From Anaerolineales bacterium (GTDB lineage: Bacteria > Chloroflexota > Anaerolineae > Anaerolineales > JABWBV01), in assembly GCA_020634875.1 (NCBI GenBank), contig JACKAX010000015.1, positions 7,946 to 71,945 on the forward strand: a DNA stretch of 64,000 nucleotides. The letters are read 5' to 3'. The notes under the pieces were generated by a model. That model searched no databases, was not told the DNA's origin, and was given only the letters and a program-made list of their open reading frames with translations. Numbering within the stretch: position 1 is the first letter of the stretch; each line of letters begins with the position of its first letter. The position numbers and the translations under genes were made by a program. Positions 11,569 to 26,190 of this stretch are shown one piece after another.

Positions 11569-12732
11569 ATGCCTGCCCAGTTTGCCCTGTTTGCCTCCCA
11601 AACAAATATAAATAAATTACGAGCACGTTGGGGTATTTTTGCTGGAATAGTAGTTCTATTCCTTATAATGGGTTACCAGTTTGCTAAAAGCCTTTGGTAT
11701 CAGCCTGTTATCCCATTTCGTTGGGCGGTCCTGAGCATGATAGCCTTTATTTATCTCCTCATGGGACTTTGGCGCAACCTTTCTGAAAATCACCGCCCTA
11801 ACGAAACCGAAATCCTACCCACATTCGGCTGGGGGAACATCCTTTCCCTCCTTCGCGGGATACTGATGATGGCCCTGGTCGGGTTCCTGTTCCAACCCCG
11901 GCCCGGCGCGGGGATCAGTGACTGGCGGATGTGGATACCCGGTCTGATCTATACCCTCGCCGCTCTTCCTGATTACCTCGACGGGTATTTTGCCCGCATC
12001 ACCAACCACGTCACCAAACTGGGTGAATGGCTGGACATGACCCTCGATTCGGTCGGGGTGTTGACCGCTAGTTTGCTCGCGGTGTTGTACGGTACGATTC
12101 CCTGGTGGTATTTGCCTATCGCCCTGGCGCGGTATCTGTTTTTGGCGGGGTTGTGGTTCAGGGAGCGGCGCAGCCTGCCTGTGTATGAGATGCCGTACAG
12201 CGTCCGGCGGCGCGGGTTTGCGGCCCTCAAAATGGGGTTTATCTTTGTCGTTCTGCTTCCCCCCTTCCTGCCCCCGGGAACGCATCTGGCCGCGGCTGCG
12301 TTCGGGGTCCCCTTCGCCCTCGGTTTTTTGTGGGATTGGGGCTATGTGAGCGGGATCATCCCCCTCGACGCGGGGAACCGGTATCCCCGGCTTAAAATCT
12401 TCATCCTGCGCTGGCTGCCCCTGTTTCCCCGCGGGTTGGCGGTCACCCTCATCATACCCACCCTCGCGCGACACCTGCAAACCCCATCTCTATCTTGGTT
12501 GGCTTATATGGAACTGATCTTCACCCTCCTCATCGCATTGGGCATCTGGCCCCGGGTCGCGGCGATTGGGGCAGTCATTCTTGTAGGGGTCAATCAGCTT
12601 TTTGCCCCCCTTGCGATAGATCAATCTACCCTAATTATTGCGTATATTTCGTTAATCTTCCTTGGCTCTGGCATCTTTTCTCTCTGGCCCTTCGAAGAAC
12701 GGCTGATTTATCATCGGATAGGCGATGCGTGA
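11569..12732 (+). CDS. CDP-alcohol phosphotransferase with C-terminal membrane domain
   Basis: 387 aa. These membrane enzymes move a phospho-alcohol from CDP-alcohol to a second alcohol, making phospholipid head groups. The active-site signature D-G-x2-A-R-x8-G-x3-D-x3-D is exact: DGYFARITNHVTKLGEWLD followed by MTLD, near residue 143-165. Several hydrophobic segments surround it. From about residue 275 an extra four-helix membrane part begins with MELIFTLLIALGIWPRVAA, resembling DoxX-like proteins and absent from ordinary phosphatidylglycerophosphate synthases. The next gene (flippase-like) starts about 100 bp later and GTP cyclohydrolase II follows with overlap, so this lipid enzyme appears to head a pathway whose other steps make a GTP-derived compound. 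The lipid and head group are unknown. Confidence 0.85.
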   Translation: MPAQFALFASQTNINKLRARWGIFAGIVVLFLIMGYQFAKSLWYQPVIPFRWAVLSMIAFIYLLMGLWRNLSENHRPNETEILPTFGWGNILSLLRGILMMALVGFLFQPRPGAGISDWRMWIPGLIYTLAALPDYLDGYFARITNHVTKLGEWLDMTLDSVGVLTASLLAVLYGTIPWWYLPIALARYLFLAGLWFRERRSLPVYEMPYSVRRRGFAALKMGFIFVVLLPPFLPPGTHLAAAAFGVPFALGFLWDWGYVSGIIPLDAGNRYPRLKIFILRWLPLFPRGLAVTLIIPTLARHLQTPSLSWLAYMELIFTLLIALGIWPRVAAIGAVILVGVNQLFAPLAIDQSTLIIAYISLIFLGSGIFSLWPFEERLIYHRIGDA

Positions 12733-12785
12733 TGAAGTGATAAGTGGTAGGTACTCATCACTTTATCACTTTATCACTTATTACT
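12731..12785. repeat. AGTGATAAGT / ATCACTTT iterated repeat
   Basis: AAGTGATAAGTG (12735-12746) faces three back-to-back 8-bp units, ATCACTTT (12757-12764), ATCACTTT (12765-12772) and ATCACTTA (12773-12780), followed by a C+T-rich run to about 12850. The element fills the gap between two genes. Related sequence recurs at 15243, 16780, 36100, 37000 and 40306. Confidence 0.6.
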
Positions 12786-12832
12786 TTTCATTCTCCCCTA
12801 CGCCCCTTTTCTCCCCCACTCCCCTCCCCCTC

Positions 12833-13864
12833 ATGCTCCCCCGCTCCTTTTCTCCTTTTCTCCGTTTCCTCCTCAAAACCCTCCCCTGGCTCTTCGTCCC
12901 CCTCTTGCTTTGGTGGGCATTGAAAGGGGTGCCTTTTCGGGAGATTGTGAATGTGCTGGGGCAGTTGAAAGGGTGGCAAATTCTGGCGATTGCGGCGGCG
13001 AACACCGTGTTAATGCTTTCGTTGAGTGCGCGGTGGTGGTGGATTTTACGGGCGCAGGGGTATCGGATTCCGTATCTCACCCTGTCGGCGTACCGGTTAG
13101 CGGCGTTTAGCGTGGCGTACTTTACGCCCGGCCCGCAGTTTGGCGGGGAACCCTGGCAGGTTTTCTTGCCCCAACAACGGCACGGCGTGCCAGGGACGGT
13201 GGCACTGGCCTCGCTGGCGTTGGATAAATTGCTCGATCTGATGGCGAATTTCACCTTTTTGGTGTTGGGGGTGATCGTGGTGTTAAACGGCGGGCTGATC
13301 GGGGGCGGGCGGGGGACGATGCTGGTGGTCTTGTCCGTGTTGTTGCTGGCGGCACCGTTGGGCTATCTGATCTGGCTCTGGCGGGGAGGGACACCGCTGA
13401 CGGGGTGGTTCACCTGGCTCGCAGCGCGGTTTCCCCGCGTGGGGTGGTTGGGAACGGCCACGCGCGTGACGCGGGAGGCGGAGGGGCAGGTGGGGACGTT
13501 CGGGCGACGGTATCCGCGGGCGTTCGTTCTCGCGGTCATATTTTCCGGGTTGGTTTGGGTGGGGTTAACGTCGGAATTCTGGTTGGCGTTGCACTTTTTG
13601 GGCGTGTCGTTGACGTTGCCGCAGGTGATCAGCATTATCACGGCGGCGCGGGTGGCGAGTTTGTTTCCGACACCGGGTGCGTTGGGGACGTTGGAGGCCA
13701 GTCAGGTATTGGTGATGGAGGCGTTGGGGCTTAACCCTGCCCTGGGCGTAGGGTTGAGTTTGATCATTCGGGCCAGGGACCTTGCGTTCGGTGGGTTGGG
13801 TTTATTTTTGGCTGGGGTGTACAGTCCCCGGTTTACTTTTTTATCTGCGGAAGGAGAACAATGA
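12833..13864 (+). CDS. LPG-synthase transmembrane-like (UPF0104/AglD-type) membrane protein
   Basis: 343 aa from ATG 12833; the frame is open back to 12725, but the added residues are encoded by the pyrimidine-rich repeat and look spurious. About eight hydrophobic segments match the lysylphosphatidylglycerol-synthase membrane region without the aminoacyl-transferase domain. The family's conserved stretch around GGEPWQVFLPQQRHG and SLALDKLLDLMAN is clear, as is the late GALGTLEASQVLVMEALG. Such proteins move lipids across the membrane (MprF flippase part) or help lipid glycosylation. Its stop overlaps the start of the GTP cyclohydrolase II gene (ATGA), so they are translated together; it may flip a lipid built by the neighbouring enzymes. 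It could also be a general flippase. Confidence 0.8.
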   Translation: MLPRSFSPFLRFLLKTLPWLFVPLLLWWALKGVPFREIVNVLGQLKGWQILAIAAANTVLMLSLSARWWWILRAQGYRIPYLTLSAYRLAAFSVAYFTPGPQFGGEPWQVFLPQQRHGVPGTVALASLALDKLLDLMANFTFLVLGVIVVLNGGLIGGGRGTMLVVLSVLLLAAPLGYLIWLWRGGTPLTGWFTWLAARFPRVGWLGTATRVTREAEGQVGTFGRRYPRAFVLAVIFSGLVWVGLTSEFWLALHFLGVSLTLPQVISIITAARVASLFPTPGALGTLEASQVLVMEALGLNPALGVGLSLIIRARDLAFGGLGLFLAGVYSPRFTFLSAEGEQ

Positions 13865-14511
13865 GTGTTTTAAGAAAAGTAGAGGCCCGGATTCCTACGA
13901 AGACCGGGGAATTCCAATTGTGTTTGTTTCAGGATGATGCCGACGACAAGGAACATCTGGCCCTGGTGATGGGCGAGGTGGCCGGGAAAGAGGCGGTGCT
14001 GGTGCGGGTGCATTCAGAGTGTTTCACCGGGGATGTGCTCGGTTCTATGCGCTGTGATTGCGGGCCGCAGTTGCAGCGTTCGGTGGCGATGATTGCTGAG
14101 GCTGGGGAGGGCGTGGTGTTGTATCTGCGCCAGGAGGGGCGCGGGATTGGGCTGTTGAACAAGTTGCGTGCGTACAACCTGCAAGATGACGGCTACGATA
14201 CGGTGGATGCGAATCTGCTCCTGGGACATCAGGCCGATGAACGGGATTACACCGTGGCCGCGGAGATGTTACATGACCTGGGTGTGGCCTCCGTCCGCCT
14301 GCTGACGAACAACCCCGAAAAGATCGCCGCCCTCGAAGCGTTGGGCATTGCCGTCGCCGGACGCGTTTCCCTCACCCCCGACGTGAACCCCGAAAACGCG
14401 CGCTATCTGCACACCAAAATCGTGCGGATGAATCATCTGTTGAGTCTGAACGGCCTGAATGGTTGGGGGGAAAATGGGCACGGGAACGGGCACGTGAATG
14501 GCAAGGGCTAA
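13861..14511 (+). CDS. ribA: GTP cyclohydrolase II
   Basis: 216 aa, full length for a stand-alone enzyme with no DHBP-synthase domain. It opens GTP to 2,5-diamino-6-ribosylamino-4-pyrimidinone 5'-phosphate, formate and pyrophosphate. Zinc ligands Cys54, Cys65 and Cys67 (ECFTGDVLGSMRCDCG) sit at the same numbers as in E. coli RibA, and Tyr105 (KLRAY) is also kept; actinobacterial variants that stop at the formyl intermediate lack this Tyr. The YLRQEGRGIGLLNK substrate loop is intact. The C-terminus has a Gly/Asn/His-rich end (about 20 residues). The gene overlaps both neighbours. The set lacks ribE, ribH and a deaminase, so a dedicated pathway other than flavin is likely, although supply of riboflavin precursor cannot be excluded. 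Confidence 0.93.
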   Translation: MSVLRKVEARIPTKTGEFQLCLFQDDADDKEHLALVMGEVAGKEAVLVRVHSECFTGDVLGSMRCDCGPQLQRSVAMIAEAGEGVVLYLRQEGRGIGLLNKLRAYNLQDDGYDTVDANLLLGHQADERDYTVAAEMLHDLGVASVRLLTNNPEKIAALEALGIAVAGRVSLTPDVNPENARYLHTKIVRMNHLLSLNGLNGWGENGHGNGHVNGKG

Positions 14512-15199
14512 CCGCCCACACATTACCCTCACCTACGCCCAAAGCCTGGACGGGAGCCTCACCGCCCGCCGCGGGGAACCGTTGGCACTCAGTGGCCCGG
14601 AAGCCATGCGGATGACCCACCAACTGCGTGCCGAACATGATGCGATTTTGGTGGGGATTGGTACTGTGCTGGCGGATGATCCGCAATTGAATGTGCGCCT
14701 GGTTCCGGGGGAGAGTCCACAACCCATCATTTTGGATAGCCAGTTGCGGTTTCCGCTTTCGGCTCGGCTGATGGGGAACTCCAAAAAACCCTGGATCGTT
14801 ACTACCCCAGTTTATTCTGATATGGACGCTGGCCGCGCAGATCGCGCGAAGATGCTAGAATCGGCAGGTATCAAGGTGCTGGCGGTTCGGCCTGATTCTG
14901 GTGGGCACGTTTCACTCCCGGACATGATCACCGAATTGAACGCACTGGGCATCCGCACTTTGATGGTCGAAGGCGGCGCAAAGGTGCTTACCGCATTTTT
15001 TCGAGCGCATTTGGTGGATGAAGTCATCATTACGGTCGCTCCGGTTTTTGTTGGTGGCGTGTCCGTGCTTGAAACCTTACTCCCTGCACCTTTCCCCCGC
15101 CTGGATGTTCATTCTGTTGAAGCTTGCGGCAGAGATTGGCTTATCCGTGGTCAGTTATTACCAGTGTCTGCATCCTTCAACTACGCTGGACAAAAGTAA
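14498..15199 (+). CDS. RibD C-terminal-type pyrimidine reductase (no deaminase domain)
   Basis: 233 aa. RibD C-terminal proteins share the dihydrofolate-reductase fold and reduce the ribosyl chain of the GTP cyclohydrolase II product to ribityl using NADPH. Hallmarks: ITLTYAQSLDGSLTA at the N-terminus, a DAILVGIGTVLADDP motif near residue 48, LMVEGGAKVL near 155 and DEVIITVAPVFVGG. The N-terminal CMP/dCMP-type deaminase domain of bacterial RibD is missing, as in archaeal and fungal enzymes that reduce before deamination. The start overlaps ribA by 14 bp, so the two products work in sequence. Expected product: 2,5-diamino-6-ribitylamino-4-pyrimidinone phosphate or a related compound. Whether it accepts another pyrimidine is open. 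Confidence 0.85.
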   Translation: MARANRPHITLTYAQSLDGSLTARRGEPLALSGPEAMRMTHQLRAEHDAILVGIGTVLADDPQLNVRLVPGESPQPIILDSQLRFPLSARLMGNSKKPWIVTTPVYSDMDAGRADRAKMLESAGIKVLAVRPDSGGHVSLPDMITELNALGIRTLMVEGGAKVLTAFFRAHLVDEVIITVAPVFVGGVSVLETLLPAPFPRLDVHSVEACGRDWLIRGQLLPVSASFNYAGQK

Positions 15200-15228
15200 C
15201 TCCAACATAGAGTAATGCCCCGTTCAGG

Positions 15229-16788
15229 ATGCTTGCATTACTCAACCACTTATCACTCATTCCTTCCCCTATGTGGTGGCTCTCCATTCCCTCCAATCGT
15301 ACCCGTCTCTTTCGTGCTGTTAGCCTCAGCATGCTGATCGTTAGCATTGGATTTATGGCGCTGATTGCTACAGTGTATTTTGGCTTACGGCTGTTTCACA
15401 TCATTTTGCCAGGGGTGTATGTGGCTGAACAAGATTTGACGTTCACAACGGTCAATGATGCTGTCTCTTTGCTTGAGGCCTCCTCGGATCGTGATTATTA
15501 TGTCGTGCTATTTGCACCAGATTGGAGCCTTGTGCGTGCGCCGAGCGATCTCGGTTTGCGCATAGACGCCGAAACCACTGCACAAAACGCGTTTGAAGCA
15601 GGTTATGCCAATGGATTTTGGGCAGGCGCCACACGGATACTGGGCCTCGCTGAACCTCGTTTGCTGCCCCCCGTTGTTACCTTCGATGAAGATCTTGCCC
15701 GACTTGGGTTGCAAGCTCTCAGCTTGGAAGCGCACATCGTCCCGCAGGAAGCACATTTCGCCCTCGAAAACGGCCAACTCATCGCCGAACCGGGCATTTA
15801 TGGGCGCACGCTCGATGTTGACGCGACTTTCCAAACCCTTGCCGCCGACCCCACCGTGACGATGTTAAGCGGTTATCTTCCCGCCTCCCTCATGGGGGTT
15901 GTCCCAGCCATTGCCGAAATCCCGCCCGACGTGTTGGCGCAGGCGCAAACGTATCTCACCAATTCCATCACCTTCAAAGCCTACGATCCCATCGCTGACA
16001 CCTACACCGATTGGACCGTCCCCCCTGAAACCCTCGCCGCGACCATCCGTTTGCAAATTCAAGAGGGGCGCGTGGCCCTCGCGACCGATGCTTTCCCCCT
16101 CCGCGACGAGATCAACAAATTCAACGAGAGTCTTGGCCCTGATCACTGGCTGGATTTGACCGGGGTGGATGACAAAGTCAACGCCGCCCTGGAAGGCGAA
16201 GCCCCCGCCATTTTTACGATGGAATATGCTCCCACCAATTACACCGTTCAAGCGGGGGACACCCTCCTCGTCATCGCATGGCGGCAGCGCATTCCGCTGT
16301 GGCGCATCGTTCAGGCCAACCCCGGCCTTGACCCCGAAAACCTCATCGTCGGCGCAACCCTGCTCATTCCCTCGCGTACCGACCTGCTAGAATTGCCTAT
16401 CGTGTATGGCAAGCGAATCGTGGTCAGCCTCACCCAGCAACATCTGTGGGCCTATGAAAATGGGCAACTGATCATGAGCGAAGTGATTAGCACGGGCATT
16501 GACCGTTCGCCCACGCAACCTGGCGTTTTCCAGGTGCGGAGCCATGTTGAAAACGCGTACGCCTCTGTTTGGGATTTGTATATGCCCAATTTTGTCGGGA
16601 TTTACGAGGCCTGGCCGGGTTTTGAAAACGGTTTTCACGGCCTGCCCCTCCTCTCTGGTGGGCGTGTGCTCTGGCGGGGGACGTTGGGTAGCCCCGTTTC
16701 GTTTGGGTGCATCATTTTGGATACGGCGGCCTCCCAACAGTTGTATAACTGGGCGGAAGATGGGGTGATTGTGGAAATTGATGAGTGA
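15229..16788 (+). CDS. Membrane-anchored LysM / L,D-transpeptidase (YkuD)
   Basis: 519 aa. One N-terminal membrane anchor (about 28-62) is followed by a VanW/PG_binding_4-like region (PGVYVAEQDLTFTTV), a LysM domain near 334-384 (YTVQAGDTLLVIAWR ... PENLIVGATLLIPS) and a C-terminal YkuD domain from about 394. The upstream His is kept in GFENGFHGLPLL. The Cys loop reads SFGCIIL instead of the usual SHGC, so the His next to the nucleophile is replaced by Phe; related sequences with aromatic residues here are known to me in this phylum, so it may still be active. It would crosslink or modify peptidoglycan on the outer face. The first 15 residues are encoded by an AGTGATAAGT-type repeat, so the true start may lie at Met15 (15271). 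Confidence 0.85.
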   Translation: MLALLNHLSLIPSPMWWLSIPSNRTRLFRAVSLSMLIVSIGFMALIATVYFGLRLFHIILPGVYVAEQDLTFTTVNDAVSLLEASSDRDYYVVLFAPDWSLVRAPSDLGLRIDAETTAQNAFEAGYANGFWAGATRILGLAEPRLLPPVVTFDEDLARLGLQALSLEAHIVPQEAHFALENGQLIAEPGIYGRTLDVDATFQTLAADPTVTMLSGYLPASLMGVVPAIAEIPPDVLAQAQTYLTNSITFKAYDPIADTYTDWTVPPETLAATIRLQIQEGRVALATDAFPLRDEINKFNESLGPDHWLDLTGVDDKVNAALEGEAPAIFTMEYAPTNYTVQAGDTLLVIAWRQRIPLWRIVQANPGLDPENLIVGATLLIPSRTDLLELPIVYGKRIVVSLTQQHLWAYENGQLIMSEVISTGIDRSPTQPGVFQVRSHVENAYASVWDLYMPNFVGIYEAWPGFENGFHGLPLLSGGRVLWRGTLGSPVSFGCIILDTAASQQLYNWAEDGVIVEIDE

Positions 16789-16812
16789 CAAGTGAAAAGT
16801 GATGAAATGAAA
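16780..16812. repeat. GTGA-iterated repeat at a gene junction
   Basis: The end of the LysM transpeptidase gene and the start of the dehydrogenase gene are joined by ATGAGTGACAAGTGAAAAGT followed by GATGAAATGAAAG. It belongs to the AGTGATAAGT-type family seen at 12731 and 36100 and supplies both the stop codon and the start region. Confidence 0.4.
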
Positions 16813-17823
16813 GCGCTTTATTTTGTTGCTCCCCAAAAAGTTGAAATTCTGGATGAAGAATTGCCGGAAATGGCCCGGGGACAGGTGCGCGTGCAGACGC
16901 TCGTTTCCGCGATCAGTTCGGGGACGGAGATGCTGATCTATCGTGGGGAAATGCCCCGTGACACGGAAACGGACTCGACCATTACCGCCCTCGCGGGGGC
17001 GTTGCGTTATCCCCTCAAATACGGGTATGCCAGCGTGGGACGGGTCACGGACATCTCCGCTCCAGGTGACCGCGCCCTCGCGTGGTGGCAGGACCGTCTC
17101 GTTTTCTCCTTCCAACCCCACCAGACCCACTTCCACGCCACTCCCGACCAATTAATTCCCCTCCCCGACGGAATCACTCCCGAACAAGCCATTTTTCTCC
17201 CCAATATGGAAACCGCGGTCAACTTTGTGATGGACGGATACCCCCTGATCGGCGAACGGGTTGCGGTATTCGGGCAGGGCATTGTCGGCTTGCTGACCAC
17301 CGCCCTCCTCGCCCAATTCCCCCTCGCGAACCTGACAACCCTCGATCATTTTTCCCTTCGCCGAACGGCTTCCCTCCACGCGGGCGCAGACCAATCCATC
17401 TCCCCCGAATTCCTAAAAAACCCCACCAGTTCCTACGATTTCCCCTCCCCGCCCTTTGACCTCACCTACGAACTCACCGGTTCCCCCACCGCCCTCAACG
17501 AAGCCATCACCGTGACCGGGTTCGACGGACGAGTGGTGATCGGGTCGTGGTACGGGCAAAAACGCGCCCCCATTGAACTGGGGGGATATTTTCACCGTTC
17601 GCGCATCCGGCTGATCAGCAGTCAGGTCAGCACGCTGGCACCGCAGTTTACCGGGCGGTGGGACAAAGCCCGGCGTTTTGAAGTGGCCTGGGAGATGATC
17701 CGCCGCGTGGGGCCGGAGAAGTGGATCACGCACAACTTTCCGTTTGCCCACGCAGAGGGGGCGTATGCGATGCTCGATCAGCATCCCGAATTGACCATTC
17801 AAACCGTTTTGAAGTACGAATAA
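16807..17823 (+). CDS. Medium-chain dehydrogenase without catalytic zinc Cys (BchC-like)
   Basis: 338 aa from ATG 16807; a GTG at 16792 is possible but lies within the repeat. The MDR fold is clear: an N-terminal catalytic half and a nucleotide-binding half with VAVFGQGIVGLLTTALLAQ near residue 145. Where zinc alcohol dehydrogenases have a Cys (GxxCGTD), this reads SAISSGTEMLIYRG, as in bacteriochlorophyllide dehydrogenase BchC (SGISTGTE). No other chlorophyll gene is near, so the role is not photosynthetic. Homologues beside pterin-type genes are something I recall from actinobacteria and Chloroflexota, without being able to check. A NAD(P)-linked oxidation or reduction of the side chain of the pyrimidine/pterin product is my inference. 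Confidence 0.75.
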   Translation: MKALYFVAPQKVEILDEELPEMARGQVRVQTLVSAISSGTEMLIYRGEMPRDTETDSTITALAGALRYPLKYGYASVGRVTDISAPGDRALAWWQDRLVFSFQPHQTHFHATPDQLIPLPDGITPEQAIFLPNMETAVNFVMDGYPLIGERVAVFGQGIVGLLTTALLAQFPLANLTTLDHFSLRRTASLHAGADQSISPEFLKNPTSSYDFPSPPFDLTYELTGSPTALNEAITVTGFDGRVVIGSWYGQKRAPIELGGYFHRSRIRLISSQVSTLAPQFTGRWDKARRFEVAWEMIRRVGPEKWITHNFPFAHAEGAYAMLDQHPELTIQTVLKYE

Positions 17824-17862
17824 ATTCTGTTCCAAAGTAATGCTCGATTTGGGAATGGAACT
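17824..17862. other. Start of a 342-bp gene-free stretch (17824-18165)
   Basis: No gene is seen between the dehydrogenase stop and the SulP start at 18166. The stretch holds the palindromic element at 17863-17930 and the promoter at 17965-17992; the remaining bases show nothing recognisable. Confidence 0.6.
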
Positions 17863-17930: not shown

Positions 17931-17964
17931 CATGTTGAGAATTGCGGACGTTTTAACTTCACTC

Positions 17965-17992: not shown

Positions 17993-18165
17993 CGCCGCCC
18001 GTTATGATGATCAGGGTCGTTGGGGGAGGACCTTTGCCTGTATCCATTTTTGTTGATTTAAATAATCTCATATTTTAAAGTCTCTTAGAGCGCGCCAGTT
18101 TGTGCAAAAGCCATATCCCTGGTTTTGTGTGTCTGTGCGTATCTTTCAAGAGCAAGGATGTGTGT

Positions 18166-19848
18166 ATGGAAACGATGTCTTATTTCCAATTGCTTCGGCG
18201 CGAGTTCACCGGGTATTCGGTCGCAAAGTTCCGGCAGGATGTGTTGGCCGGGTTGACAGTGGGAGCGGTCGCGCTACCGCTGGCGTTGGCGTTTGGGGTG
18301 GCGTCCGGGGCGGATGCGGCGGCGGGGTTGGTGACGGCGATCCTCGCGGGGATCGTGATCGGGGTGTTGTCCGGGGCACCTTATCAGATTTCTGGGCCGA
18401 CTGGGGCGATGAGCGCGGTGCTGATCTTGTCCGCGCAAAAGTACGGGTTGGAAGGCGTTTGGGTCATCGGCGCCCTCGCGGGGGTGCTGATCCTATTGAT
18501 TGGCGTGTTCCGCCTGGGGCGGTTTATTGCGTATATCCCGGCGCCCGTCATCACCGGGTTTACATCCGGGATTGCGGTGATCATCTTCGTCGGGCAGATT
18601 GACAACTTTTTGGGCGTCAAAACTCCTGGGGCGGAGTCCACCGCGTTGAAAATTCTCGGCTATTTTCGGGGTGGGTTTTTTCCCGATTGGCGAGTGATGC
18701 TGGTGGGAGCATTGGTGGTGCTGACGATGATTTTCTGGCCGCCGAAGTGGGGCAAATTCTTGCCGGGTTCGCTCGCAGGCATTATCCTGGCAACGGTCGT
18801 GACGGTGCTGACCGGGTGGAATATCCCCGCGATTGGCAGTATTCCGCGCTCGATCCTCCTCGACGCCCGGTTGACGTTTACCCAAATCCCCTGGCAAAAA
18901 TTACCCGATTTCTTTGCTCCTGCGGTTTCGATTGCGGCGTTGGGGGCAGTGGAATCATTGTTATGCGGTGCGGTCGCGGCGAAAATGACCGGGATTCGTC
19001 TGCATGCCAATCAGGAGTTGATTGCGCAGGGGTTGGGCAACCTGCTGATCCCGTTTTTTGGTGGGGTTCCAGCAACCGCGGCGATTGCGCGGACTTCGGT
19101 CGGGATTAAGTCCGGCGGGCAGACGCGGGTGGTTTCGCTGGTCCATTCGGCGCTGTTGCTGGCCTCGGTGTTGGTGCTGGCCCCGGTCATTGCGCGGGTG
19201 CCGCTGGCCACGCTCGCGGGGGTATTGATGGTGACGGCGTACCGGATGAATGAGTGGGCGGCGATTCGGTTTATGTTTTCCCGCCGGTTCAAAACGGGAA
19301 TTTTGACGTTTGCGCTAACCCTGGTGGCAACGGTGGCGCTCGACTTGACGCAGGCGATTTTGATTGGGGTGATGCTTTCGTCGGCGTTGTTTATTAATTC
19401 CGTGGCGCGGCTGACGATCACGAAGCAAAAGGTGGACCCGGAGAAAATGCGGGCGCGGGGTTTCAATATCCGCGGGAATTGTCCGCACGTTGAAGTGGCC
19501 TACCTGACCGGGCCGTTGTTCTTTGCGGCGACGGGCAATTTCAACGAGACGTTAGCCGACCTCTCAGATACGCATGTGCTGATCCTATCGATGCGCGCGG
19601 TGCCGTTGATTGACGTGTCGGGCATCGAGGCGTTGGCGGGGCTGTTTGAAAAAATGACGCATGAGGGTAAAATCCTGATGCTTTCTGGGGTGCAACCGGG
19701 CGTGATGGCGATGCTCAACCGGGCCGGATTGGTGGAACTGCTCGGTGAAAACCGGATTTTCTGGAGCAGCGATCAGGCCATTGTCGAAGCGGAAAACCGG
19801 ACGTGTCCATATTGTGGAATGATCCACGAAGAACACGAAGGTCACTAA
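18166..19848 (+). CDS. SulP-family anion transporter with STAS domain
   Basis: 560 aa from ATG 18166 (METMSYFQLLRREF); residues encoded upstream in the frame are not typical of the family. SulP proteins move sulfate, bicarbonate or dicarboxylates. The sulfate-transporter membrane core spans about 15-415, with the family signature ALPLALAFGVASGADAAAGL, SGAPYQISGPTGAMSAVLIL, and PFFGGVPATAAIARTSVGIK. A C-terminal STAS domain (about 440-540) holds VPLIDVSGIEALAGL. The protein ends CPYCGMIHEEHEGH, a small Cys/His-rich end unusual for the family that might bind metal. Its place between the dehydrogenase and the pterin-synthase-like gene could be chance or it could import an inorganic anion for the pathway. 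Substrate cannot be told from sequence. Confidence 0.9.
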   Translation: METMSYFQLLRREFTGYSVAKFRQDVLAGLTVGAVALPLALAFGVASGADAAAGLVTAILAGIVIGVLSGAPYQISGPTGAMSAVLILSAQKYGLEGVWVIGALAGVLILLIGVFRLGRFIAYIPAPVITGFTSGIAVIIFVGQIDNFLGVKTPGAESTALKILGYFRGGFFPDWRVMLVGALVVLTMIFWPPKWGKFLPGSLAGIILATVVTVLTGWNIPAIGSIPRSILLDARLTFTQIPWQKLPDFFAPAVSIAALGAVESLLCGAVAAKMTGIRLHANQELIAQGLGNLLIPFFGGVPATAAIARTSVGIKSGGQTRVVSLVHSALLLASVLVLAPVIARVPLATLAGVLMVTAYRMNEWAAIRFMFSRRFKTGILTFALTLVATVALDLTQAILIGVMLSSALFINSVARLTITKQKVDPEKMRARGFNIRGNCPHVEVAYLTGPLFFAATGNFNETLADLSDTHVLILSMRAVPLIDVSGIEALAGLFEKMTHEGKILMLSGVQPGVMAMLNRAGLVELLGENRIFWSSDQAIVEAENRTCPYCGMIHEEHEGH

Positions 19849-19889: not shown

Positions 19890-19906
19890 GAATCAAAGGA
19901 GTTTTT

Positions 19907-20287
19907 ATGTACAAGGTAGCTGTAAAACGCGATTTCGTTGCCCAACATTACCTTATCGGTGGGGATTGGGGCGCGGAGAATTTTTTGCATTCCCATCACT
20001 ACGCCGTTGAACTGCAACTCGAAGGCGAAACGCTCGATCAGCATGGGTATCTGGTGGACATCGTAGACATCGAAAACCATCTCAACGCGCTTGTCGCGTA
20101 CTATAAAGATCACACCCTCAACGATCTCCCCGAATTCGCCGGACTGAACCCCTCCATCGAATACTTCTCCCGCATCCTCGCCGATTCTCTCGCCGCGCGG
20201 ATTCATGCCCCCAACCTATCTGCCCTGACCATAGTCGTGTGGGAAAATGAGATTGCGTGGGCGAGTTTTCGGAAAGGGTTGGGGTGA
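19907..20287 (+). CDS. 6-pyruvoyltetrahydropterin synthase / QueD-like protein
   Basis: 126 aa from ATG 19907 with AAAGGAG just upstream. The fold binds zinc through His14, His28 and His30 (VAQHYL, LHSHHY), all present, and the DIVDIENHL and PSIEYFSRILADSL segments are typical. The catalytic Cys found shortly before the second zinc His in QueD is missing; Glu24 (ENFLHSHH) lies there. Bacterial PTPS-III proteins, which make 6-hydroxymethyl-dihydropterin, also use Glu, although the exact register is uncertain. No other queuosine or folate gene is adjacent. Between SulP and a GT4 gene 3 bp downstream, it is probably part of the GTP-derived biosynthetic set. Substrate not established. Confidence 0.8.
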   Translation: MYKVAVKRDFVAQHYLIGGDWGAENFLHSHHYAVELQLEGETLDQHGYLVDIVDIENHLNALVAYYKDHTLNDLPEFAGLNPSIEYFSRILADSLAARIHAPNLSALTIVVWENEIAWASFRKGLG

Positions 20288-20290
20288 TGG

Positions 20291-21379
20291 ATGCGCCTTG
20301 CCCTCCTCATTTATGGCTCCCTTGACACAATCTCTGGGGGGTATTTGTATGACCGGAAGCTGGTGGAATATTTGCGGGGACAGGGAGATACGGTGGAGAT
20401 TATCTCGATCCCCTGGCGGAATTACGCCGCGCATTTGACGGATAACTTTTCCCCCGCGCTGTACCGTCGCCTGAAAGCCTTCCGCGGCGACATCCTGATC
20501 CAAGACGAACTCAACCACCCCTCGCTCTTCCTCCTCAATCGCCGGTTACGCAATACGGATTACGCAATCACTTCCATCGTCCACCACCTCCGCGCGAGCG
20601 AACAGCACCCCGCGGGGATCATGCCCCTGTACCGGGCGGTGGAACGCGCGTATCTCTGTACCCTGACCGGGTTCGTGTTCAACAGCCGGACGACGCAACG
20701 GGCGGTGGGGGCGTTGATGGGGCAGGAGGTTGCCCGTAGCGTGGTGGCCGTTCCGGCAGGGGACCGGTTGCCGATCAACTTAGGGGACGCGGACATCCGT
20801 CAGCGGGGGATGGGGTTGGGCCCGTTGCGGTTGTTGTTCGTGGGGAATGTTATCCCGCGGAAGGGCTTGCATACGGTGTTGGCGGCGTTGGCGCGGGTGG
20901 TTTTTCCGTGGACGTTGGATGTGGCGGGAGATTTGCGTGTAGCCAGTGATTATGTGCGAGGGTTGCAGGAGGAAGTGGCGCGGCGCGGATGGGGGCGGCG
21001 CGAGGGGGCGCAGCAGGTGAAGTTTTGGGGCGCGGTGACTGATGAGGCGTTGGCGCGTCTGGCCTCGGGGAGTCAGGTGTTGGTGATGCCATCGAGTTAT
21101 GAGGGGTATGGGATTGTGTATCTGGAGGGGATGGGGTTTGGGCTGCCTGCGATTGGCACGACCGCGGGGGCGGCGGGGGAAATTATCACGGATGGGGTGG
21201 ATGGGTTTCTCATCGCCCCGGAGGATGCGGAAAGTTTGGCGGAGCGGTTGCGGGAGTTGGATGAAAATCGTGCCCGATTGGTTGCAATGAGCCTCGCGGC
21301 CCAGCGACGGTATGCCGCGCATCCAACGTGGGAGGCAAGTATGGCGCAGATACGAGAGTTTTTGTCGCGTCTTTTGTAG
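20291..21379 (+). CDS. Glycosyltransferase family 4
   Basis: 362 aa, a GT-B fold retaining glycosyltransferase. The N-terminal half has LIYGSLDTISGGYLYDRKL (acceptor side). The C-terminal half has RLLFVGNVIPRKGLHTVLAAL and the donor-binding PSSYEGYGIVYLEGMGFGLP, in which the E-x7-E pattern of GT4 is kept. The start is 3 bp after the pterin-synthase-like gene, so the two are co-translated. Codon use is very GC-rich, like ribA and SulP. In this context it probably glycosylates the pathway product or a lipid precursor; a role in ordinary exopolysaccharide cannot be excluded because another locus lies 20 kb away. Confidence 0.88.
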   Translation: MRLALLIYGSLDTISGGYLYDRKLVEYLRGQGDTVEIISIPWRNYAAHLTDNFSPALYRRLKAFRGDILIQDELNHPSLFLLNRRLRNTDYAITSIVHHLRASEQHPAGIMPLYRAVERAYLCTLTGFVFNSRTTQRAVGALMGQEVARSVVAVPAGDRLPINLGDADIRQRGMGLGPLRLLFVGNVIPRKGLHTVLAALARVVFPWTLDVAGDLRVASDYVRGLQEEVARRGWGRREGAQQVKFWGAVTDEALARLASGSQVLVMPSSYEGYGIVYLEGMGFGLPAIGTTAGAAGEIITDGVDGFLIAPEDAESLAERLRELDENRARLVAMSLAAQRRYAAHPTWEASMAQIREFLSRLL

Positions 21380-21411
21380 GCGAACCGGGTTTTAGCAGTA
21401 AATCCAATCTA

Positions 21412-21439
21412 TTGGTATAGACGTATGATTGGGTATATC
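21412..21439 (+). promoter_or_regulatory. Candidate promoter of the small membrane protein gene
   Basis: TTGGTA (21412-21417) and TATATC (21434-21439) are 16 bp apart. A strong GGAGG lies before ATG 21462. Confidence 0.4.
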
Positions 21440-21461
21440 TTTTTTCTCCGGAGGTCGTAGC

Positions 21462-21803
21462 ATGAGTTTCTTTGGTTCTCGCAATTCGATTTTAGCCCTT
21501 ACGGTTGTGACCGCCCTGATCCATTTGGTATTAGGGTTGGGTTCGTTTCCTGATTTTTTTGGCATCATTTTTCTCTTGAATGCGCTAGGGTTTTTGACTT
21601 TGATGTACGCGCTGCTTTGGAAGCCTTCTTTTTTGAAGGGGCAGGAAGGGATGGTGCGGTGGGTCTTTTTGGGCTTCACGGCGTTGACGTTTGTGTTGTA
21701 TTTTGTGTTTCAAGGGCCTGATGCCTTTCGAAATGTGATTGGGCTTGTTACCAAACTTGATGAAGCCCTGTTGATCGTCTCGCTCTGGCGCTATCAAAGC
21801 TGA
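21462..21803 (+). CDS. Small four-helix membrane protein, unknown function
   Basis: 113 aa from ATG 21462, with GGAGG 6-10 bp upstream. Four hydrophobic segments are visible at about 7-24, 26-45, 58-76 and 84-103, with short loops and a basic end (WRYQS). I do not recognise a family; the plan is like many small integral membrane proteins of bacteria. It has its own promoter-like sequence and a strong terminator directly after, so it is likely a separate transcript between the glycosyltransferase and the binding-protein genes. Confidence 0.7.
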   Translation: MSFFGSRNSILALTVVTALIHLVLGLGSFPDFFGIIFLLNALGFLTLMYALLWKPSFLKGQEGMVRWVFLGFTALTFVLYFVFQGPDAFRNVIGLVTKLDEALLIVSLWRYQS

Positions 21804-21850
21804 AGCAGTCCCAGTCTTTTCGTATACATCGCAAAATTCTGAACAAGGAA

Positions 21851-21877
21851 AAGGCGTGCCACGGCACGCCTTTTTTT
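21851..21877 (+). terminator. Rho-independent terminator
   Basis: GGCGTG and CACGCC close around CCACGG (stem 21853-21870) and are flanked by AAA and a run of seven T (21871-21877). It ends the small membrane protein transcript. Confidence 0.85.
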
Positions 21878-21933
21878 AGGGGTAAAAGGTTGTAGAACCT
21901 TGGGCACAAGTGCAAAAGAGGGAAATGACTGCG

Positions 21934-22018
21934 CTTAATCTTAAGAAAATTTAAGAACACTTAAGAGTTGCTAAGAGCTTTCTTATGCGGCTTAATATTT
22001 TTTTTGTGGGAGTATAAT
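21934..22018 (+). promoter_or_regulatory. 10-bp phased TTAAG repeats upstream of a TATAAT box
   Basis: TTAAG occurs at 21941, 21951 and 21961 and CTAAG at 21971, exactly 10 bp apart, with flanking CTTAAT at 21934 and 21991. A perfect TATAAT (22013-22018, in GGGAGTATAAT) follows. Direct repeats on one helix face ahead of a poor -35 are what OmpR/PhoB-type activators bind. The regulated gene would be the solute-binding protein at 22243. Confidence 0.55.
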
Positions 22019-22038
22019 GCTCAAAGGTCGGAAATATT

Positions 22039-22209
22039 ATGAAAACTTCATATTTTCATGTTAAAAGTTCAAGGAGATTTTTAAAACTATTCAAATATCA
22101 GCTTTATTTTTCCCTGCTGTTTGGTTTGAGAATTATGGTAAGCCCCTTCTGGCGGCCAGCAGCAAGAAATTCTTCGCCAGTTGCACACCGTTATCACCGA
22201 TTGTTATAG
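22039..22209 (+). CDS. Possible 56-residue leader ORF
   Basis: An ATG at 22039, about 20 bp after the -10 box, opens 56 codons to TAG at 22209. The peptide is basic and hydrophobic (MKTSYFHVKSSRRFLKLFK start). AAAGG lies 12 bp upstream. It has no recognisable family and may be chance coding in a regulatory leader; reported because it fits the predicted transcript start. Confidence 0.2.
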   Translation: MKTSYFHVKSSRRFLKLFKYQLYFSLLFGLRIMVSPFWRPAARNSSPVAHRYHRLL

Positions 22210-22242
22210 CGCATCTTCTGAAAATTTAAATAAGGAAACCTT

Positions 22243-23580
22243 ATGCGAAAACCCTTTCCCTTCTTAAAAACGCTTATCTTCATAACACTTTTTACGCTTT
22301 TTCTTGCCGCATGCCAATCGGCTCCGGCAACCACCACAACCTCCACATCCGAAGAACCCACAGGCGAAACGGTTCAAGGTCCCCCGCAAACCATTACTTT
22401 TATGATCACAGGCAGCCCGGAAGAACAGGCAGCCTACGAAACCCTAATCGCTGGATTTAAAGAAACCAATTCAAATATAGATGTTGTGCTCAACAACGTT
22501 CCCGATGAAGAGTTTGAACGGAAACTTGCTACGATGTTTTCCGCCAGCGCTCCGCCCGATATTTTTCTGATGAATTTCCGTAATTTGGGGGTGTATGCTT
22601 CCCAAGGTGCTTTGTACCCACTCGATACTTTGCTTGATTCCAGCAAAGCGCTCAGCCGGGGCGATCTATATCCCGCCGCGTTGAAAGCCTTCACCTACAA
22701 CGGCGCGCTCCAATGTCTGCCCCAAAACCTCAGTAGCCCTGTGATTTACTACAACAAAGCCTTGTTTGATGCCGCAGGCATGGCCTACCCGAAAGAAGGC
22801 TGGACCTGGGACGATTTTGTCGCTGCTGCCCGTGCTCTGACGAAAGATACCAACGGCGATGGCACCCCCGACCAATTTGGCTTTGGCACTTCCGTTCAAG
22901 CGATGCGACTGGCCCCGTTTGTCTGGCAAAATGGCGGCGACTTCCTCGATGATTACGCCAACCCCACCCGCCTGACCCTCGATACCCCCGAAGCCCGTGA
23001 AGCCATTGAATGGTTTGTCAACCTACAGGTTGTTGAACATGTGATGCCCGATGCCGTTTCCGAAGAAGCTGCCAGTAGTTCCAATCGTTTTGTGGCTGGT
23101 ACATTGGGTATGTTCATGAATAGCCGCGTGGCAGTTCCCACTTTACGCACCATCACTGATTTTGAGTGGGACGCCGCCCCCCTGCCTGTGGGGAAACAGC
23201 CTGCCTCCGTCTTGCATAGCGACGGGTTCTGTGTCCCGACCGAAGCCGCCAAAGACCCGAATCACCTGAACGCGATTTGGACATTCATCGAATACGCCTT
23301 TTCAGAAACCGGTCAATCTCTTCTCGCAGCCACCGGGCGCACTGTACCTTCGATGATAAAAGTCGCGGAATCGGCAGCTTTCTTGGAAAGTGTCCCCCCG
23401 GCCAATAACCAACCCTGGCTGGACGCCGGCGCCCACATGAACGCCTTCCCCATCCTACCCCAGTGGGGTGCCATTGAAGGGACGATCACCAACGAACTGA
23501 AACGTGCCTTTTATGGCAATGCGACCGTGGATGAAGCGATCCAGGCGATGGAAAATGGGGCCGCGGAAGCGTTGAAGTAA
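22243..23580 (+). CDS. ABC transporter sugar-binding lipoprotein, family 1
   Basis: 445 aa. The N-terminus is a lipoprotein signal (MRKPFPF, hydrophobic core, LAAC at about 22-25) followed by a Thr-rich linker. The SBP_bac_1 domain binds oligosaccharides or glycerol-phosphate-like compounds. Typical segments: GSPEEQAAYETLIAGFKETN near the start, FSASAPPDIFLMNFRN, and YYNKALFDAAGMAYPKEGWT. A DTNGDGTPDQFGFG stretch resembles a Ca-binding loop and recurs in the paralogue at 23885. No permease or ATPase gene is next to it, so it must share an importer encoded elsewhere. Phased TTAAG repeats upstream suggest response-regulator control. Confidence 0.9.
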   Translation: MRKPFPFLKTLIFITLFTLFLAACQSAPATTTTSTSEEPTGETVQGPPQTITFMITGSPEEQAAYETLIAGFKETNSNIDVVLNNVPDEEFERKLATMFSASAPPDIFLMNFRNLGVYASQGALYPLDTLLDSSKALSRGDLYPAALKAFTYNGALQCLPQNLSSPVIYYNKALFDAAGMAYPKEGWTWDDFVAAARALTKDTNGDGTPDQFGFGTSVQAMRLAPFVWQNGGDFLDDYANPTRLTLDTPEAREAIEWFVNLQVVEHVMPDAVSEEAASSSNRFVAGTLGMFMNSRVAVPTLRTITDFEWDAAPLPVGKQPASVLHSDGFCVPTEAAKDPNHLNAIWTFIEYAFSETGQSLLAATGRTVPSMIKVAESAAFLESVPPANNQPWLDAGAHMNAFPILPQWGAIEGTITNELKRAFYGNATVDEAIQAMENGAAEALK

Positions 23581-23675
23581 TGCGCCTGCCTCTCTCTCTG
23601 TTGGCGTCTATGGGCTAACTCTGGCAACAAGGGTTTAGATGTCAACAGATGAGGGTCAGGTCTCTAGAAATTGAG
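23581..23675. other. Gap of 304 bp between two sugar-binding protein genes (23581-23884)
   Basis: Contains two palindromes, at 23676-23698 and 23762-23826, and no gene. AGGTCTCTAGA around 23659 partly repeats the arm sequence of the second palindrome. Nothing else is recognised. Confidence 0.5.
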
Positions 23676-23698
23676 AGGGCATGGATATTCCATGCCCT
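23676..23698 (+). terminator. Perfect 10-bp hairpin, terminator-like
   Basis: AGGGCATGGA and TCCATGCCCT are exact complements with a 3-nt loop. The sequence after it is AT-rich (TAATATTTG) but lacks a clean T run, so terminator function is only likely. Confidence 0.5.
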
Positions 23699-23761
23699 TA
23701 ATATTTGTCAAAATCTGAATATCTAAGATTTTGACTATAAAAATAGTAACTATTCAACCGT

Positions 23762-23826
23762 AGACCTGACAGGTTTTTCCAGAGTATTTTGTGAAATTTC
23801 ATCTCACTTCAAAACCTGTCAGGTCT
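23762..23826. repeat. 16-bp inverted repeat with nested ACCTGACAGGT palindromes
   Basis: AGACCTGACAGGTTTT (23762-23777) and AAAACCTGTCAGGTCT (23811-23826) are exact complements around a 33-nt loop. Each arm contains an odd palindrome (ACCTG-A/T-CAGGT). This is the form of a dispersed palindromic element; similar ACCTGACAGGT units are familiar to me from Chloroflexota and cyanobacterial intergenic DNA. Confidence 0.65.
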
Positions 23827-23884
23827 GCTACGAAAAAAATTTTTATCGGGTAGGGGCTTTGGCCTGATTGCCTCAAAAGGAGCT

Positions 23885-25246
23885 ATGATGAATAACCAAC
23901 CAATTCTCTTAAGTTTGAAGCATCGGAGAACAGGACGGGGTGCCGTCTTTGTGCTGGGACTGGCTTTATTCCTGTTTGCGGGCATGCTCGCGGGTTGTCA
24001 GCGCGCTTCTGCACCAACAGAAATATCCTTTAGCGTCTTCGGTGAACCTGCCGAGATTCAATCGTATCAGGCTATCGTGGATGCGTTTTCCGAAAAACAC
24101 CCTGAAATTAAAGTGAACTTTAGTTATGTCCCGGAAGATGCAGAATATCGCCAACGGTTGGCGATCCAGTTTTCGGCCGGAAACGCTCCCGATGTGATGT
24201 TGATTGATTACCGCCACGTTGCTTCGTATGCGGCTTTGGGCGGCCTCGAACCCGTCGGCCCATTCCTGGACAAGAGTAGTATGGTAAAAGCCTCTGATTA
24301 TTACACAGCCCCCATGAAAGCCTTCACATGGGATGGCAGTTTGTGGTGTATTCCGCAGAACATTTCTAGCCTCGCGGTGTACTACAACAAAGATTTGTTT
24401 GACGCCGCCGGAGTGCCTTATCCCACGAATGACTGGACGCAAGAGGACTTTCTGAGCGCGGCCCGTACCCTTACGATTGACCAAGATGGCGATGGCACCC
24501 CCGATCAGTACGGGGTGGGTATCTCGCCGTTGCTGATCCGCGCGGCCCCGTTCATTTGGCAAAATGGCGGACAAATGGTAGATGATCCGCAAAATCCTAC
24601 CCGTTTAACCCTCGATCCGCCGGAGACGAAGGAAGCCCTGCAATGGTTTGTGGATTTGCAAGTCAAAGAACACGTTGTTCCAGACCGTGTTGCCGAGCAG
24701 GCTTCGAGCAGTGAAAACCGTTTCCTCGCCGGAACCCTGGCGATGTACTTCAATAGCCGCCGTGGGGTGCCCACCTACCGCACCATCACCTCGTTTGATT
24801 GGGATGTGGCTCCCCTCCCCGCAGGCAAAACCTTTGTCACCATTCTTCATAGCGATGGTTTCTGCATGTCCAAAAACTCGGCGAACAAAGACGCCGCGTG
24901 GACGTTCATCGAATATGCCAACTCCGTGGAAGGACAAACGATTCTGAGCCAGACCGGACGTGTGGTCCCCTCCCTCATCTCGGTCGCCGAGTCTCCCGCA
25001 TTTCTCGACCCCAACCATCCCCCAGCCAACAGCCGCATTTGGCTGGATACCGCCGACAAAGTTGTTCCCATCTCCATCTTCCCTGGCTGGCCGGGCATCG
25101 AAATCGTGACCAACAACGAACTCAGCCGCGCCTTCTACGGCATTGCACCGCTCGAAAACTCCATCGAGGACGCCCAGCGCGATACGACGGAATATTTCAA
25201 AGAAGCGTTTGACTTTTCCAAAGCCCCCGTGGAAGAGGATGAATAA
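23885..25246 (+). CDS. ABC transporter sugar-binding lipoprotein, family 1, paralogue
   Basis: 453 aa. The start is the first ATG of ATGATG with AAAGGAG upstream. The signal is long (about 38 residues, ending in LAGC). The rest is SBP_bac_1, closely related to the protein at 22243-23580 along its whole length: both have YYNKxLFDAAG, the DGDGTPDQ loop and a NSRxxVPTxRTIT segment. The C-terminus extends with an acidic end (KAPVEEDE). It is followed by a strong terminator. The pair probably arose by duplication and may give the same permease two substrate ranges. Neither has transport genes nearby. Substrate unknown. Confidence 0.9.
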   Translation: MMNNQPILLSLKHRRTGRGAVFVLGLALFLFAGMLAGCQRASAPTEISFSVFGEPAEIQSYQAIVDAFSEKHPEIKVNFSYVPEDAEYRQRLAIQFSAGNAPDVMLIDYRHVASYAALGGLEPVGPFLDKSSMVKASDYYTAPMKAFTWDGSLWCIPQNISSLAVYYNKDLFDAAGVPYPTNDWTQEDFLSAARTLTIDQDGDGTPDQYGVGISPLLIRAAPFIWQNGGQMVDDPQNPTRLTLDPPETKEALQWFVDLQVKEHVVPDRVAEQASSSENRFLAGTLAMYFNSRRGVPTYRTITSFDWDVAPLPAGKTFVTILHSDGFCMSKNSANKDAAWTFIEYANSVEGQTILSQTGRVVPSLISVAESPAFLDPNHPPANSRIWLDTADKVVPISIFPGWPGIEIVTNNELSRAFYGIAPLENSIEDAQRDTTEYFKEAFDFSKAPVEEDE

Positions 25247-25288
25247 GCCAAAAATCGTTTGACGAACTTTCTAAAATCCTGTAAAAAC

Positions 25289-25313
25289 AAAAGCGCGTAG
25301 CCCACGCGCTTTT
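25289..25313 (+). terminator. Rho-independent terminator
   Basis: AAAAGCGCGT (25289-25298) and ACGCGCTTTT (25304-25313) form a perfect 10-bp stem around a 5-nt loop, with TTTG after. It ends the binding-protein transcript only 10 bp before the ATG of the methyltransferase gene. Confidence 0.85.
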
Positions 25314-25323
25314 GTTTGATCCT

Positions 25324-26190
25324 ATGAATTACTCTTTTCCCCGTTACCTCGCCGCGAAAAAAACCATAGACGACCGCGCCCTCAACCAGCACGTGTGGGA
25401 TACCATGACCCGCGCGGTTTCGCCCGCCGCGCCGGGCGAACCGCTTCGCATCCTCGAAGTGGGGTGTGGCATCGGCACGATGTTCGAGCGTTTGTCGGAA
25501 CGCGGTTTTCCGATCCCTTTTACCTACACTGGCATTGACGCTTCCCCTGAAAATATCACCTCCGCCCGCGTACGTTTCCTGCCTACTACTGATCATTCAC
25601 CACTTACGCCCTACTTCCTCCTTGCTGATCTTTTCGCCCTCCCTCCCGAAATTCTCCCTGCTTCCTTTGACCTCCTCCTCGCGCATGCCGTGCTCGATCT
25701 CCTTGACCTCTCGCGCGCATTACCGCACCTCTTTCGCTATTTGCGCCCTGGTGGCGTTTTCTACTTTACGCTTAACTTTGATGGAGAAACCATCTTTCAA
25801 CCCGAACATCCCCTCGATCCGCTCATCCTCGCCCTCTATCACCGCACAATGGATGAACGTCTGACGGAAGGGGTGCCCTCGGGGGATAGCCGCACCGGAC
25901 GCCATCTGTTCGCCCACCTGCAAAACTCGGGGGCAGAAATTCTCGCGGCGGGTAGTTCAGATTGGGTGGTATTCCCCGGCGCAATGGGGTATCCAGGTGA
26001 TGAAGCTTATTTTCTGCATCATATCCTCCATTTTTTTGAGCAGTCTTTATCCGGATATTCGGAATTACCAGAAAATCAGCTGCTTGCTTGGCTTGAAACC
26101 AGACATGGGCAAATTACCCGAAAAGAATTGGTATTCTTAGCCCATCAGTTGGATTTTGCGGGAACGGTGCAGCAGTTTGGGATTTCATGA
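25324..26190 (+). CDS. SAM-dependent methyltransferase, class I
   Basis: 288 aa from ATG 25324; TTG at 25312 is possible but lies in the terminator stem. SAM-binding motif I is clear as ILEVGCGIGTMF near residue 43-54, followed by motif II around FTYTGIDASPENI. The N-terminus NYSFPRYLAAKKTIDDRALN is a conserved lead-in that I associate, from memory, with methyltransferases next to pterin-type clusters in actinobacteria. The internal PTTDHSPLTPY stretch (25575-25610) is encoded by AGTGATAAGT-like repeat sequence and looks like an insertion. No ribosome-binding site is visible. Presumed role: methylating the product of the neighbouring biosynthetic genes. The methyl acceptor is unknown. Confidence 0.8.
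   Translation: MNYSFPRYLAAKKTIDDRALNQHVWDTMTRAVSPAAPGEPLRILEVGCGIGTMFERLSERGFPIPFTYTGIDASPENITSARVRFLPTTDHSPLTPYFLLADLFALPPEILPASFDLLLAHAVLDLLDLSRALPHLFRYLRPGGVFYFTLNFDGETIFQPEHPLDPLILALYHRTMDERLTEGVPSGDSRTGRHLFAHLQNSGAEILAAGSSDWVVFPGAMGYPGDEAYFLHHILHFFEQSLSGYSELPENQLLAWLETRHGQITRKELVFLAHQLDFAGTVQQFGIS

Follow-up and report, generated by a model that had tools for sequence, protein, structure and literature searches.

A conserved gene set with GTP cyclohydrolase II and a PTPS-like protein in Chloroflexota that is not flavin synthesis

The gene set in the window

We analyzed a stretch of 64,000 nucleotides (the window) from an Anaerolineales bacterium (contig JACKAX010000015.1, assembly GCA_020634875.1), in which genes for GTP cyclohydrolase II (GCH II), a RibD_C reductase, a BchC-like dehydrogenase, a PTPS-like protein, a GT4 glycosyltransferase and a methyltransferase lie together with two lipid genes. 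We found that this gene set is real and conserved and that it is not flavin synthesis. An annotation made earlier from the DNA letters (the original prediction) had read these genes as the source of a glycosylated, methylated pyrimidine or pterin attached to a lipid, and profile matches recovered every gene that it named, in place and on the + strand. The genes are laid out as follows:

11569..12732, +: CDP-alcohol phosphotransferase, PgsA-like, an accessory lipid gene (PF01066, E 3.5e-20)
12725..13864, +: LPG_synthase_TM / HpnL-like membrane protein, putative lipid flippase, an accessory lipid gene (PF03706, E 2.5e-36)
13861..14511, +: GCH II, stand-alone (PF00925, E 3.3e-71; TIGR00505 above cut-off)
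14498..15199, +: RibD_C reductase without a deaminase domain (PF01872, E 8.5e-46), predicted to reduce 2,5-diamino-6-ribosylamino-4(3H)-pyrimidinone 5'-phosphate (DARoPP)
15229-16788: YkuD/LysM gene, not named in the original prediction
16792..17823, +: BchC-like medium-chain (MDR) dehydrogenase (TIGR01202, E 5e-15, far under cut-off)
18100-19848: SulP gene, also not named before
19907..20287, +: PTPS-like tunnelling-fold protein (PF01242, E 1.6e-25; longest open reading frame (ORF) from GTG 19865)
20291..21379, +: GT4 glycosyltransferase (PF00534, E 8.6e-27)
21429..21803, +: small DUF7475-like protein, likewise not named before, predicted from its hydrophobic sequence to be a membrane protein (PF24287 under cut-off)
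22243-23580 and 23885-25246: two solute-binding proteins, again not named before
25312..26190, +: class I S-adenosylmethionine-dependent methyltransferase (PF08242, E 1.9e-13; PF08241)

Adjacent genes overlap at three of the 12 junctions (-8, -4 and -14 bp), and the methyltransferase gene is split from the GT4 gene by the ORF at 21429-21803 and the two solute-binding-protein genes.

Conservation in other genomes and on plasmids

A profile of 26 PTPS-like proteins of the kind found in the window (window-type) matched 395 relatives in a genome collection, and we surveyed the best 80 loci of these 395, which by record title are nearly all from Chloroflexota, with further titles naming Desulfomonile, Binatota and Deltaproteobacteria. 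Counted with profiles built from those same loci, the most frequent neighbors were GT4 (74 of 80), the BchC-like dehydrogenase (62, or 63 including one weak match) and the methyltransferase (55, usually directly after GT4), followed by RibD_C (47), GCH II (39), the LPG-type flippase (30), the DUF7475-like gene (30) and the CDP-alcohol transferase (23). All 39 loci with GCH II also carry RibD_C and the dehydrogenase. GCH II and RibD_C are fused into one protein in 16 of the 80 loci, and in six RibD_C is a divergent copy 3' of the methyltransferase. Many contigs end near the set; counting only the 43 loci flanked by 5 kb or more on each side, GT4 is present in 38, the dehydrogenase in 32, the methyltransferase in 31, the flippase in 18, the DUF7475-like gene in 17 and the transferase in 14.

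Related sets were also observed on plasmids of actinobacteria, proteobacteria and haloarchaea, where we examined 19 loci out of 22 and 16 matched records (two overlapping lists). The dehydrogenase gene stands immediately before the PTPS-like gene in 17 of these 19 loci. An archaeal GTP cyclohydrolase replaces GCH II in two Haloarcula loci (GCH IIa, above cut-off in Haloarcula halophila), and the DUF7475-like gene recurs, more weakly (31-46 bits), in four haloarchaeal loci. Actinobacterial examples of the set occur in S. fungicidicus and Microbacterium; among culturable organisms, Methylosinus trichosporium OB3b (plasmid pOB3b1) and Haloarcula sinaiiensis carry it too. Of solved structures, SCO6650 of Streptomyces coelicolor (PDB 3d7j) is nearest to the PTPS-like protein, and PTPS-like genes of the SCO6650 type likewise lie near a BchC-like dehydrogenase, GT4 and methyltransferase. 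The original prediction had proposed conservation of the neighborhood as its own test and had pointed, with some hesitation, to similar sets in actinobacteria; the survey and the plasmid loci bear out the former, and the latter was right, given the kinship of the PTPS-like protein with SCO6650. Our searches of the open-licence literature listed no paper whose title or abstract describes the set.

A few further observations concern the surroundings of the set. On two Streptomyces plasmids (L101, L102), SCO6650-like genes stand alone and the rest of the set is absent there. A cytochrome b561 gene adjoins the set in one proteobacterial plasmid (L094:12055-12582, PF01292), and cytochrome b is annotated in two others (L092, L107). 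Clustering of the remaining neighbors returned mainly small ORFs resembling antisense frames; one family of membrane proteins occurs in 11 loci.

GCH II, RibD_C and the dehydrogenase

The GCH II of the window has 216 residues and no DHBP synthase domain, and it scores well above the cut-off for RibA (263 versus 205.85 bits, PF00925/TIGR00505). Its catalytic residues are intact across the family: Cys54, Cys65, Cys67 and Arg128 (E. coli RibA numbering) are found in 44 of 44 proteins, and Tyr105 in 42 of 44. The RibD_C protein bears the motif TLTYAQSLD, as does the solved DARoPP reductase 4ha7. A Lys of B. subtilis RibD, which we take to read the deaminated ring, is missing at that site in all 50 RibD_C proteins in which the motif could be located (the other 13 of the 63 gave no motif match), and the protein thus resembles DARoPP reductases both in this position and in having no deaminase. 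Its score is under the equivalog cut-off of TIGR01508 (125.3 versus 186.45 bits), and we therefore call it reductase-like and not a member of that family. Among the residues of the dehydrogenase that are conserved at the 95% level (90 aligned sequences) there is no Cys, which makes a classical zinc enzyme unlikely.

The set is not flavin synthesis

The first two enzymes of the set are the same as, or analogous to, those of the early riboflavin pathway of archaea and fungi, including a reductase without a deaminase. The window set differs from that pathway in that its genes include no deaminase, DHBP synthase, lumazine synthase or riboflavin synthase. Whole genomes were searched for 33 of the 80 loci, chosen mostly for their longer flanks and all other than the window's own genome. 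GCH II and a RibD_C-family protein (paralogues included) were present in 33 of 33. Lumazine synthase was found in seven (26 without) and riboflavin synthase in six (27 without), so that the two late enzymes expected of a riboflavin biosynthesis operon, with the set or elsewhere, are mostly missing. G017, a record titled as a chromosome, has a single GCH II, located inside the set, and neither lumazine synthase nor riboflavin synthase. Where the late genes are so completely absent, the known route leaves the set no way to supply flavin. The original prediction would have failed had the set made good for riboflavin genes missing elsewhere; such genes are indeed often missing, yet the late steps are gone with them, and its claim that the set does not supply flavin holds. 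For comparison, in a sample of 301 genomes from the phylum of G017 (the phylum sample), lumazine synthase was found in 187 and GCH II in 208.

A PTPS-like protein with altered active site

We compared the active-site residues of 101 PTPS-like proteins (88 window-type and 13 SCO6650-type, with the type C proteins described below excluded). The catalytic Cys (QueD Cys27) is absent in all 101, and none has a His in the column of His71; six of the window-type sequences show a His in the next column, and the window protein itself reads Asp-His. All 101 retain Glu110, which binds the pterin. The window type retains the zinc ligands His16, His31 and His33, apart from seven proteins with Asn in place of His31, and in the SCO6650 type Ala replaces His33 in 13 of 13. 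The seven window-type proteins in which HSH has become NSH (L034, L046, L054, L059, L061, L065 and L073) have no GCH II nearby. The family thus shares with QueD and with PTPS-I, -II and -III (COG0720) the fold, the pterin-binding Glu and, in the window type, the zinc His residues, but differs from them in that none of their three published signatures (CxxxHGH, CxxxxxHGH and ExxHGH, as given in passages of PMC5041015) matches any of the 101 proteins. As QueD (PTPS-I), the window protein reaches 46.5 bits against the TIGR03367 cut-off of 89.25, and it does not qualify as PTPS-II or PTPS-III either.

A protein of S. fungicidicus that is 92% identical to SCO6650 lies in a similar set, with a dehydrogenase, GT4, methyltransferase, CDP-alcohol transferase, creatininase-family protein and GCH II of the Met type. 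The SCO6650 type differs from the window type in the Ala at one zinc His and, in S. fungicidicus, in the creatininase-family gene alongside. In S. coelicolor, the GCH II homologue SCO6655 makes the formyl intermediate, and SCO6650 is not known to have PTPS activity. Passages of PMC9478397 describe a formamidase of the creatininase family that makes DARoPP.

Reading 20 of the weaker PTPS places of the phylum sample, we found seven proteins that are QueD-like by eye, one SCO6650-type gene alone, and 12 clusters of a third type (type C), in which a protein with the motif ATRMHGH (ACRLHGH in one) lies beside GT4. RibD_C and the dehydrogenase are present in nine of the 12 type C clusters and GCH II in four. 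In eight of them a FolB gene stands directly 5' of RibD_C (for example L116:4327-4707, between the methyltransferase and RibD_C), and by eye its Lys corresponds to the one in E. coli FolB. A search of the 80 window-type and 19 plasmid loci yielded no FolB. For the type C lineage, FolB favors a pterin over the pyrimidine form. FolE and FolB are present, and an HPPK match is absent, in five type C genomes (G151, G239, G085, G167 and G271).

Lipid genes beside the set

The CDP-alcohol transferase of the window belongs to the CDP-alcohol phosphotransferases by PF01066 and by its catalytic motif (DxxDGxxAR...GxxxDxxxD), which is also present in 30 of 32 homologues from the clusters. Its nearest solved chain is PgsA (7drj, E 1.7e-7), and its score as PgsA itself is under the cut-off (TIGR00560, 50.4 versus 109.1 bits). 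The flippase accompanies it in 22 of the 23 loci that bear it, and the transferase recurs in 9 of the 19 plasmid loci, across actinobacteria, proteobacteria and haloarchaea. In the phylum sample, where at most six candidates were scored per genome, the cluster-type transferase gave a strong match in 2 of 301 genomes and occurred in 1 of the 21 genomes with a window-type PTPS-like gene; no genome-level link between the two genes was found there. The presence of the transferase beside the set is above chance because it occurs in 23 of 80 loci and is rare in the 301 genomes, although the 80 are also the loci most closely related to the window. The copy in G217 has an internal stop, and the locus of G017 (L044) contains the core and neither lipid gene. 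We conclude that the CDP-alcohol transferase is not part of the core and that the lipid part is weaker than the rest, with fewer than half of the loci having the lipid genes next to the set. A further hint of lipid genes is a family of PlsC-like acyltransferases in 14 loci (for example L054:7366-8265; PF01553, one member scanned).

Proposed pathway

We see an even chance that the set diverts the early riboflavin steps to a product other than flavin, likely a glycosylated, methylated 2-amino-4-oxo pyrimidine or pterin. GCH II, with its intact catalytic residues, is predicted to convert GTP to DARoPP. Elsewhere, archaeal GCH IIa, or the Met-type GCH II beside the creatininase-family gene, would fit the same DARoPP intermediate. 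The motif, the fusion and the gene overlap suggest that RibD_C then reduces DARoPP to the ribityl compound, and with no deaminase the 2-amino-4-oxo edge of guanine and pterins would be kept. The PTPS-like protein, with its Glu kept and its Cys and His lost, may bind this edge and, together with the dehydrogenase, carry out a ring- or side-chain-forming step. Glycosylation by GT4 and methylation by the methyltransferase would follow. In those lineages that have the genes, the PgsA-like transferase may attach the ribityl phosphate to a lipid, which the LPG-type protein may then flip.

Several observations weigh against this diversion of DARoPP. Even among the 43 long-flank loci, GCH II is present in only 24 and RibD_C in only 27, and of seven haloarchaeal loci without a nearby RibD_C gene only two have a GTP cyclohydrolase. 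The RibD_C profile scores best against bacterial RibD chains (7lrh, 2b3z), not DARoPP reductases. In G027 and G032 the sole GCH II found is a long one beside lumazine synthase, so the set there has no GCH II of its own. FolB in type C clusters points to neopterin-like side-chain chemistry, which fits ribose cyclisation better than reduction, and lumazine synthase is present in 8 of the 12 type C carrier genomes. Most of the genomes are metagenome assemblies, many of them incomplete, and the absences are therefore partly incompleteness. Co-occurrence, on the other side, speaks for the diversion. In the phylum sample, 114 genomes lack lumazine synthase; of these, 17 of the 18 with a strong PTPS-like match have GCH II, versus 15 of the other 96 (p 1e-10), and the figures are 26 of 29 versus 6 of 85 (p 8e-17) when PTPS matches are taken down to E 1e-10, a threshold picked after the matches had been seen and at which cluster types and QueD-like proteins are mixed (a middle group of 52 genomes). 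These p-values from Fisher's test are only a guide, as the genomes are related and not independent.

Alternative explanations

A tentative alternative, which we consider possible, is a split GTP cyclohydrolase I (GCH I), in which GCH II would provide the zinc-dependent hydrolytic half and the PTPS-like protein the Amadori rearrangement and ring closure to dihydroneopterin phosphate; RibD_C would then reduce the pterin, the dehydrogenase would act on the side chain, and GT4 and the methyltransferase would finish a pterin glycoside like biopterin glucoside. The PTPS-like protein keeps the Glu that anchors the pterin and has lost the Cys and His, and the Ala at one zinc His in the SCO6650 type is expected if the zinc chemistry takes place elsewhere. 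The FolB genes of type C clusters also fit, and the RibD_C profile weakly reaches dihydrofolate reductases too. In Chlamydia, GCH II feeds pterin synthesis, and the tetrahydrobiopterin (BH4) route includes a PTPS enzyme. Bacterial pterin glycosides are known from cyanobacteria, in which BGluT (UDP-glucose:BH4 glucosyltransferase) makes BH4-glucoside and PgtA makes cyanopterin, as passages of PMC3546692 describe; they share with the set a GTP-derived ring and a glycosyltransferase, but start from GCH I where the set has GCH II, and RibD_C and the BchC-like dehydrogenase are extra here. The RibA-RibD_C fusions, however, suggest that the reductase uses the GCH II product straight away, and the window-type and plasmid loci have yielded no FolB.

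Somewhat more doubtful is a lipid headgroup pathway, compatible with either ring chemistry, in which the ribityl phosphate of a GTP-derived pyrimidine would be transferred onto CDP-diacylglycerol (CDP-archaeol in haloarchaea) and the lipid then flipped. The pairing of transferase and flippase, the intact catalytic motif, the spread over three plasmid groups and a frequency far over background (again for the window's nearest relatives) speak for it. The single phylum-sample genome that has both genes, the broken copy in G217 and the bare core in L044 speak against it. The original prediction is thus partly supported: the conserved set, its separation from flavin synthesis and the actinobacterial relatives have stood; the lipid attachment may hold, with both lipid genes recurring but the transferase so scarce in the phylum sample, and the ring may be either a pyrimidine or a pterin.

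Folate supply in organisms lacking GCH I is improbable: PF01227 finds nothing in 14 of the 33 window-type carriers, 10 of which do have HPPK, but GCH I matches were found in the other 19 (one under cut-off), with three in G017, and in 12 of 12 type C genomes, of which five have HPPK.

The notion that the set still feeds flavin synthesis is barely credible: GCH II and RibD_C are riboflavin enzymes and most type C carriers have lumazine synthase, but the window genes include no deaminase or DHBP synthase domain, most window-type carriers are without the late genes, and four lumazine-synthase carriers have an extra GCH II besides the copy near lumazine synthase, located in the set (G008), fused to RibD_C (G029) or stand-alone outside the examined locus (G006, G007).

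Other genes of the window

Two neighbors were dropped as members of the set: YkuD, with three weak matches (24-27 bits) in the 80 loci, and SulP, with one. The solute-binding proteins were left out; they were unprofiled in the survey and break the GT4-methyltransferase order seen elsewhere. The YkuD gene inside the set (15229-16788) also bears LysM and PG-binding domains, and a second YkuD L,D-transpeptidase gene lies near the set at 10334-11482 on the - strand. Two large ORFs (721 and 769 amino acids) with no Pfam match or only HEAT occupy a region of lower GC content (0.43) at 26309-30776. Scans of the window with Rfam and for tRNAs gave no matches.

Significance

GCH II and RibD_C are easily annotated as riboflavin synthesis, and such calls would be wrong for many Chloroflexota because most window-type carriers that we tested have no late riboflavin genes. 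If the product of the diverted DARoPP is a pterin, it would start from GCH II instead of GCH I, the source of most biological pterins according to passages of a 2026 review (PMC13259868). At the far end of our reading lies the unlikely idea that a membrane lipid or lipid-anchored cofactor is common to bacteria and haloarchaea, with a glycosylated, methylated head, a GTP-derived pteridine or ribitylaminopyrimidine made from DARoPP by a re-purposed PTPS whose catalytic residues are lost, possibly with a membrane redox or light-absorbing role, to which the cytochrome b genes on the three proteobacterial plasmids are a pointer. The set spans bacteria and archaea and is found on plasmids of culturable organisms, and this orphan pathway is therefore directly testable.

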